Positions 5,011 to 19,152 of a DNA stretch of 64,000 nucleotides are shown piece after piece. The DNA is taken from the NCBI GenBank assembly GCA_945890485.1, contig CAMDCN010000008.1, forward strand, positions 124,001 through 188,000. Reading direction: 5' to 3'. Position numbers and translations under genes: made by a program. Under the pieces are notes generated by a model. That model saw only the letters and a list, made by a program, of their open reading frames with translations. It did no database searches and was not told the DNA's origin. The stretch is from Candidatus Sulfopaludibacter sp. SbA3 (GTDB lineage Bacteria > Acidobacteriota > Terriglobia > Bryobacterales > Bryobacteraceae). Position 1 is the first letter of the stretch, and every line of letters starts with the position of its first letter.

Positions 5011-5697
5011 TTACGGCGCCGTCCGCATGTCCCCGGCGGAGCGGATGGCAACCGGCTGAAATATCCTATACCAGACATAGCTCGTCAAAATGCTGCCGGC
5101 TGAAATCACTAAGTTGCCAACATCCCGCACCTCATTCGGAAAGAACCGAAGCGCGTGACCCATCGCGTCAATTGTGCATTGCAGCCCTAATCCAGCACTG
5201 ATCAGGAGGATCGTTTGGTCCCGCTTGCGGTTCGATAACAGAAACGACCACAAAACCAAATTCATGCCAGCGGAAACAAAGGCAACATCGCGACTGACGA
5301 ACGTCATCCATCGGTTTGGCAACCCCGACGCAAAAACATCGTAGTGCCATGCGCCCGATCCGAAAAGTGCCACTACGAATCCAAGTGACATTAAAGTTAC
5401 CGTCCGTCCGATACCAGGTCGCAACTCTCCAGCCTTTCGAGTGAGCACCAAAAGTAGGATCACCCCGCACAATTGCATCGAGAGAGAGAGAATCCAGTAG
5501 GCGGAGCGGCTAACCCCCGTCCAGGTAGCGCCCGAACCCAAAAACGCAATGCTCATCGGAGCCGACAGGCTAAAGGTGAGGCAGAGGTAGGCGAACAGTA
5601 CCGGAAATCGACGCCAAGCGCCCCCCAGCATCGCCTGCAAGGCTCCAACTATAAATAGTGTGGTGAGGCCCGTAGAGAGATAGTAAAAAGCAGTCAC
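5011..5697 (-). CDS. Hypothetical polytopic membrane protein
   Basis: 228 residues with about seven hydrophobic segments, starting with MTAFYYLSTGLTTLFIVGALQAML. No enzymatic motif seen. The start is GTG at 5697, preceded by GAGGAG seven bases upstream. That Shine-Dalgarno sequence lies inside the 3' arm of a long hairpin (5697-5743). The gene lies 69 bases downstream of the exported repeat peptide (5767-6069) on the same strand, so the two probably form a cassette. Function unknown; a sensor, immunity or transport role would be a guess. Confidence 0.75.
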   Translation of the reverse strand: MTAFYYLSTGLTTLFIVGALQAMLGGAWRRFPVLFAYLCLTFSLSAPMSIAFLGSGATWTGVSRSAYWILSLSMQLCGVILLLVLTRKAGELRPGIGRTVTLMSLGFVVALFGSGAWHYDVFASGLPNRWMTFVSRDVAFVSAGMNLVLWSFLLSNRKRDQTILLISAGLGLQCTIDAMGHALRFFPNEVRDVGNLVISAGSILTSYVWYRIFQPVAIRSAGDMRTAP

Positions 5698-18556: not shown

Positions 18557-19084
18557 CTACTTCTTTTTGAGCCGGGCGCAAACCGCGGCCGTTGCTTCGT
18601 TATGCGCGGCAGGCTTGTTATCAGCGACGATTTCGATGATCTTGCCCTCCTTGTCAATCACGAAGGTGGTACGGCTGGCGATGCCTCGTTCTTCCATCAA
18701 GACGCCGTAGGCCTTGGCCGTAGCGCGATTGGGGAAATCGCTCAATAGGGGGAACGCCAAGCCCAAGTCATCCGAGAACCGCTTTAGGGATGGGGCAGCG
18801 TCAACACTGATGCCAAACAACTGAGTCTCTGACTCGTTGATCGTTTGGATTCCAGCCTGGAATCCTTTCATTTCCGCCGTTCAACCACCGGTAAACGCGA
18901 GCGGGAAAAAGGCGAGCACAACATTTTGTTTGCCTTTGAAATCCGCGAGCGAGAACGATTTGCCGGGAACGGAGGAGGGCAGTTTCTCGAAGCCAGGCGC
19001 AACATCGCCGACTTTGAGATGGGTCTTTCCGCCCTGGGCAAGAAGCGCAGTGGCGGCGACCAGGCTCAAAAATAGAGTTTTCAT
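18557..19084 (-). CDS. Candidate selenocysteine-containing exported peroxiredoxin (in-frame UGA at the peroxidatic site)
   Basis: 175 residues if the TGA at 18881-18883 is read as Sec (U68). It starts MKTLFLSLVAATALLAQG (signal peptide), then the AhpC/TSA fold (KVGDVAPGFEKLPSS; VVLAFFPLAFTGG-U-TAEMKGFQ). The family motif PxxxTxxC is met exactly as P61, T65, U68, and the catalytic Arg is R138 (SRTTFVID). The reading frame continues intact after the TGA to the stop. A perfect 8-bp hairpin with a GGC loop starts 15 bases after the UGA, as expected for a bacterial SECIS. Alternative: a nonsense-mutated Cys enzyme; this is less likely given the hairpin. C169 near the end might act as resolving residue. 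It is first in a row with a decayed paralogue upstream. Confidence 0.82.
18847..18865 (-). promoter_or_regulatory. SECIS-like hairpin downstream of the UGA
   Basis: On the minus strand GGATTCCA-GGC-TGGAATCC: 8 perfect base pairs and a 3-base loop beginning with G. The stem begins 15 bases and the loop 23 bases after the UGA, inside the 16-37 base window and with a loop G as described for bacterial SECIS elements. The decayed paralogue has unpaired sequence at the same place. Confidence 0.75.
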
Positions 19085-19152
19085 AGTGGACCTCTCCGCC
19101 TTCCAGTGTAGGGTAGGCGGACAGGTCCGTGGGAGGTGCTTGCGACTTGCCT

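Follow-up and report, generated by a model that had tools for sequence, protein, structure and literature searches.

The window analysed here is a stretch of 64,000 nucleotides from Candidatus Sulfopaludibacter sp. SbA3 (contig CAMDCN010000008.1, our C8, positions 124001-188000), an acidobacterium whose 7.1-Mb genome is in 35 contigs. On its minus strand lies a gene for an AhpE-like peroxiredoxin of the AhpC/TSA family, whose 176 codons (final stop included) run from ATG to TAG with a TGA at codon 68 as the sole internal stop (Table 1). Translation agrees with the first-pass annotation of this DNA, which had described one frame broken only by this TGA and had placed it exactly at the peroxidatic position of a PxxxTxxC motif; the active site reads P61xxxT65xxU68, U standing for selenocysteine (Sec). 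An ordinary open reading frame (ORF) caller splits the gene, as had also been anticipated, into the pieces 18881-19084 and 18557-18871 (67 and 104 residues). Comparative evidence from the recoding signal, from how well it is conserved and from the machinery of the genome argues, with a probability of roughly 0.93, that this is a working selenoprotein gene in which UGA68 is read as Sec.

The product scores 113.6 bits against the PF00578 (AhpC/TSA) domain, with a cut-off of 26, which places it among the peroxiredoxins. T65, position 68 and R138, which we take to be the catalytic Arg, are invariant in both of our peroxiredoxin alignments (16 and 34 rows); P61 is invariant across the 16 rows and not across the 34.

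Table 1. Features of the peroxiredoxin locus, in window coordinates
Feature	Coordinates	Strand	Basis or remark
Putative selenoprotein gene, AhpE-like AhpC/TSA peroxiredoxin, probably exported	19084-18557	minus	175 residues, Sec at 68
UGA codon, putative Sec68, peroxidatic residue of PxxxTxxU	18883-18881	minus	TGA in 103/136 aligned rows
SECIS-like hairpin, perfect 8-bp stem and GGC loop, 15 nt after UGA	18865-18847	minus	sequence, covariation
Probable signal peptide, residues 1-17, hydrophobic	19034..19084	minus	end placed by eye
Codon of C169, invariant C-terminal Cys, candidate resolving residue	18578..18580	minus	alignments
GGAGAGG, likely ribosome-binding site, 6 nt before ATG	19091..19097	minus	by eye
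Decayed tandem copy of the peroxiredoxin, just upstream	19528-19177	minus	CGC (Arg) at active site

Conservation, hairpin and machinery at UGA68

Relatives of the peroxiredoxin were found at E <= 1e-25 in 189 of the 257 genomes of the order. Within the genus the gene is present in 17 of 19 genomes, the window's own included, and all 17 copies carry TGA; G098 and G101 gave no peroxiredoxin match. We fetched 130 loci (30 + 100), most but not all of the best-scoring listed matches, and obtained 136 aligned rows, in which codon 68 is TGA in 103, TGC in 30, TGT in 2 and CGC in 1. These loci are not a census and the titled genomes discussed below overlap those of the order, so the Sec/Cys frequencies are not census values. 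The alignment of homologues proposed in the first-pass annotation thus has mostly Sec at residue 68, with Cys in 32 of the 136 rows, and the in-frame UGA occupies a conserved redox position that has Cys homologues, the pattern that marks a selenoprotein. Four Cys rows at 29-38% identity proved to be other peroxiredoxins; without them, 28 Cys rows remain. The ratio of nonsynonymous to synonymous substitution rates (dN/dS) is 0.063 and 0.144 before the UGA in two groups of close orthologues and 0.134 between the groups, and 0.031, 0.072 and 0.069, respectively, after it. The low values after the UGA imply that the downstream part is selected as protein and therefore translated. The second half had been called undamaged; the frame holds no other damage, and the combination of close Cys homologues with random decay downstream, named at the time as grounds for giving up the claim, is not what purifying selection after the TGA leaves us with.

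The hairpin claimed in the first-pass annotation, with arms and loop GGATTCCA-GGC-TGGAATCC, lies where it had been placed, and resembles a selenocysteine insertion sequence (SECIS). In the window, 8 of the 1597 TGA triplets on both strands precede a comparable stem (perfect 8 bp, 3-8 nt loop, 10-22 nt downstream of the TGA), three of the eight being this same stem; the hairpin by itself was rejected as proof of Sec on these grounds. An Rfam scan of the window returned no family at its cut-off, and the hairpin was therefore tested by covariation. As a null for the stem, synonymous codons were drawn at the family's own usage, 200 times for pairs and 60 times for energy. The TGA rows pair at 6.76 of 8 stem positions against a null mean of 4.54 (standard deviation 0.08), a value reached by none of the 200 draws, and their mean stem energy is -9.7 kcal/mol against -5.3 kcal/mol, reached by none of the 60. 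Pairing in the Cys rows is 3.04 against 2.88 (reached by 42 of 200 draws). The hairpin stands beyond chance because the TGA is conserved in 103 of 136 rows and the stem exceeds this null.

Two neighbouring stem pairs covary across the 103 TGA rows, as TAC-GGT in 83, TTC-GGA in 19 and TAT-GAT in 1, with no mismatch; the RNA changes (UUC-GGA, UAC-GGU, UAU-GAU) are compensatory. Over 122 Sec rows of a larger set (below), a single mismatch occurs at the F/Y pair and none at its neighbour. A search of the phylum added 29 loci, all with TGA, in which TAT-GAT occurs 26 times and TAC-GGT twice, and 28 of them pair at 4 or 5 of the 5 inner stem positions. The TAT-GAT form recodes Gly to Asp in the protein, so the RNA appears to have left its mark on the encoded sequence. 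Furthermore, in 18 sequences chosen by hand for variety and compared with 500 shuffles, 4 of the 8 pairs vary on both sides (a number reached by 9 shuffles) and the covariation score was reached by none, further pair types being unremarkable (118 shuffles reach their count); the stem is 88% paired in register and 25-39% in slid versions. A covariance model, R1, built from these 18 sequences, the window's own included, found the hairpin site in its own genome at E 7.8e-12, with the next best match at 0.51. No other convincing copy emerged from this R1 search of the genome, which also missed the SECIS of SelD.

The first-pass annotation had made its case depend on selA, selB, selC and selD, above all on SelB and tRNA-Sec, and the genome of the window contains them all. 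The tRNA-Sec scores 70.6 bits (gathering score 47), with the anticodon tca (UCA) in ARAGORN; SelB scores 378.8 bits (cut-off 242), SelA 455.9 (cut-off 268) and SelD 354.9 (cut-off 125). Across the order, tRNA-Sec was detected in 200 of 257 genomes and, among the 122 genomes whose genes were typed, in 89 of the 101 that carry the Sec form and 14 of the 21 that carry the Cys form only (Fisher p 0.022). The SelD match (L049, G000:C9:111412-112320) spans one in-frame TGA, and SelD is therefore probably another selenoprotein. In one relative, G054, some 2.5 kb separate the tRNA-Sec (C36:2411-2503) from a peroxiredoxin of the Cys form (5025-5534).

Distribution and history of the Sec and Cys forms

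The Sec form recurs across Acidobacteriota. Titled genomes were also scanned, and the 80 best-scoring loci out of 536 gave 84 rows, with TGA in 39, TGC in 31, TGT in 13 and TAC in 1 at codon 68; the closest records among these 80 are acidobacterial metagenome-assembled genomes at 97-98% identity, and the TGA forms include, by title, Bryobacteraceae, Terriglobia, Blastocatellia and Pyrinomonadaceae. A scan of the phylum matched 212 of 396 genomes at E <= 1e-30, not every match being a Sec form.

Removal of duplicate proteins reduced the set from 173 to 156, which we placed on a quick single-gene tree, leaving out the CGC row and L033, a partial sequence; 122 of the 156 are Sec and 34 are Cys forms, and six of the Cys rows served as outgroups. 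Counted as present when at least 4 of the 5 inner positions pair, the hairpin occurs in 121 of the 122 Sec rows and 4 of the 34 Cys rows. The tree requires no fewer than 15 changes between Sec and Cys. Under a Cys root, Sec is gained 2-4 times by parsimony and replaced by Cys 11-13 times; under a Sec root there are 15-17 changes, of which 1-4 are gains. These figures are to be read with caution, as they come from one gene and a quick tree method with many weak branches. A 2006 survey reported mainly Cys-to-Sec changes (PMC1794560). Our fullest account of the family, held tentatively and at somewhat short of even odds, would be that of an old, mainly vertical acidobacterial trait in which Cys replaced Sec 11-13 times against 2-4 gains, the reverse of the 2006 trend, in which the SECIS dictated the change from Gly to Asp so that a base pair was kept, and whose product is a 2-Cys-like Sec/Cys peroxidase of the envelope.

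As a set, the Cys rows pair no better than the null, and L110 (G083:C18:141681-142363), a TGC version, alone keeps all 8 stem pairs. Its stem is likely a fossil SECIS. A recent change from Sec to Cys was rejected for this locus, which groups with the Cys row L078, the nearest Sec row being 1.19 substitutions per site away. At L183 (3133-3615), two peroxiredoxin domains stand in one frame, each with a TGA and a hairpin, and two N bases lie between them; the locus may be a fusion with two Sec residues or a pair of neighbouring genes, and the fused protein was dropped as a candidate because of the N bases.

The decayed tandem copy upstream of the gene, absent from the first-pass annotation, is the sole CGC row of the 136; it has an internal TAG and a frameshift, and its middle is missing. 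No tandem second copy was seen in the available flanks of the other 16 same-genus loci or of L151-L154. In sister species (L027, L029, L030, L031, L033 and L154), a second peroxiredoxin-like gene of 29-38% identity adjoins the Sec gene; those of L027, L029, L030 and L154 have TGC at the active site and look PrxQ-like by motif.

Alternative readings of UGA68

Were the TGA a true stop, the locus would hold a truncated or decaying peroxiredoxin, or the triplet would be a sequencing error. The two ORFs returned by the caller fit this, as does the clearly decayed tandem copy next to the gene, but the same TGA stands in every one of the 17 same-genus loci and in 103 of the 136 rows, dN/dS is lower after it than before, the frame is otherwise undamaged and the hairpin is maintained against the synonymous-codon null. 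Conservation and dN/dS led us to reject a pseudogene or sequencing error, which we regard as extremely improbable. In the window, TGA ends 34 of the 80 stop-to-stop frames of at least 250 codons, a count of little weight, many of these frames not being genes. Hardly more credible is that a suppressor or variant tRNA inserts another amino acid, be it Cys, Trp or Ser, at UGA68: Acidobacteria are reported to have variant tRNAs of the allo-tRNA type (PMC7609411) and homologues have Cys at position 68, but the tRNA-Sec scores above its family cut-off, SelA, SelB and SelD are present, and the UGA is accompanied by a conserved hairpin, something that suppression should not require. The translation of UGA as Sec, inferred in the first-pass annotation, is thus supported by the machinery, the conservation of the TGA, the hairpin above its null and the selection after the TGA.

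Several observations weigh against the Sec reading or parts of its support. A hairpin in one sequence alone is modest evidence. The fold energy of the Cys rows is slightly below the null (1 of 60 draws reaches it), their stem pairs not being above it. The hairpin is absent in L236 (1 of the 29 phylum loci) and L210 (1 of the 122 Sec rows); the same codon is TGA without this hairpin in L193, L195 and L217 (Dehalococcoidia, by eye) as well as in L210 (Gemmataceae), perhaps reflecting another SECIS shape or an independent origin. On the tree, the covariation amounts to few events, with 3 state changes at F/Y and 4 at the neighbouring pair; these contrasts were too few for the two pairs to be treated as independent events. 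The independent-pairs test of hairpin against Sec has only 5 independent Sec/Cys contrasts on well-supported (starred) branches and was rejected as stand-alone support, not being significant (p 0.0625). Finally, 12 of the 101 Sec-form genomes gave no tRNA-Sec match, although the listed completeness is 100% for one of them, G118 (400 contigs), and 99% for another, G090 (580 contigs); all 12 are in at least 70 contigs, and the search across the order ran with stricter filters.

Proposed mechanism and comparison with known peroxiredoxins

In the proposed mechanism, the ribosome would decode UGA68 as Sec, which SelB and tRNA-Sec would deliver on recognising the hairpin that follows after 15 nt, and the N-terminal signal peptide would take the product across the inner membrane. 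A hydrophobic 12-mer occurs within the first 35 residues in 97 of the 103 Sec rows and 28 of the 28 Cys rows, and this N-terminal stretch suggests that the peroxiredoxin is probably exported. The product would fold like the AhpE/Bcp peroxiredoxins, Sec68 would reduce peroxides, the selenenic acid would probably be resolved by Cys169 as an Se-S bond, and a periplasmic thiol system may then reduce this bond. This suggests that Acidobacteriota with the Sec form use selenium in peroxide defence at the envelope.

C169 is invariant in 34 aligned proteins and is the sole Cys after residue 68 in 98 of the 103 Sec rows and in all 28 Cys rows. We lean towards C169 as the residue that resolves oxidised Sec68, judging from its conservation. 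A selenoprotein with the 1-Cys mechanism of AhpE, with a structural role for C169 and reduction of the oxidised Sec by an external thiol, is a less probable but serious possibility: AhpE, called a 1-Cys peroxiredoxin in the titles of two entries, is the closest fold by VIA-align, and C169 sits inside a predicted C-terminal helix (158-174), against which stands the invariance of this only later Cys. A 1-Cys peroxiredoxin has no further conserved Cys. The invariant C169 departs from this, and the protein is therefore filed as AhpE-like by its predicted fold, not as an AhpE-type 1-Cys enzyme with Sec.

Compared with the known structures, AhpE of Mycobacterium tuberculosis (1xvw, 1xxu, 4x0x, 5id2) is the best match in a single-sequence search and by VIA-align; in a profile search it comes just after 2ywn, and Foldseek places Bcp4 and Bcp1 ahead of it. 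Entry titles call AhpE a 1-Cys peroxiredoxin, whereas the present protein would combine Sec with an invariant C-terminal Cys; AhpE aligns to model residues 20-174 only, and the N-terminal stretch therefore has no counterpart in it. The archaeal Bcp1 and Bcp4 (3drn, 3hjp) are the top Foldseek matches to the fold, at 34-37% identity, and their entry titles give no hint of Sec or export.

Sec-peroxiredoxins with a TxxU motif are an established family in earlier papers (PMC9312934, PMC13188914, PMC1088965), as the first-pass annotation had recognised. A survey of more than 5200 organisms counts them in 78 (PMC5029168), and that of 2006 lists 3 families and 4 selenoproteins for Acidobacteria (PMC1794560). 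Among the matches listed in our searches of the open-access literature, none dealt with a Sec-peroxiredoxin that is exported or comes from acidobacteria, and the earlier phrase "little described" fits in this sense, the kind itself being known and acidobacterial selenoproteins having been counted in 2006. Ordinary ORF calling would split a widespread acidobacterial antioxidant enzyme and lose its active site, and NCBI's current Sec-peroxiredoxin model fails to recognise it; the tree set (122 Sec and 34 Cys) offers a natural series for testing SECIS rules and Sec/Cys exchange.

In the case of PrxU of Eubacterium acidaminophilum, the resemblance lies in the AhpC/TSA domain and a PxxxTxxU motif with peroxidatic Sec (PMC9312934, PMC13188914). 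The differences are the probable export signal, the AhpE-like fold and the invariant C-terminal Cys of the present clade, features for which the comparison is with PrxU and not with other Sec-peroxiredoxins. None of the 12 NCBIfam families listed for the present protein reaches its cut-off, and the PrxU model, NF040737, scores it at 49.3 bits against a cut-off of 270. The clade therefore lies outside NCBI's PrxU model and seems to be a phylum-wide, not yet described branch of a known kind of selenoprotein.
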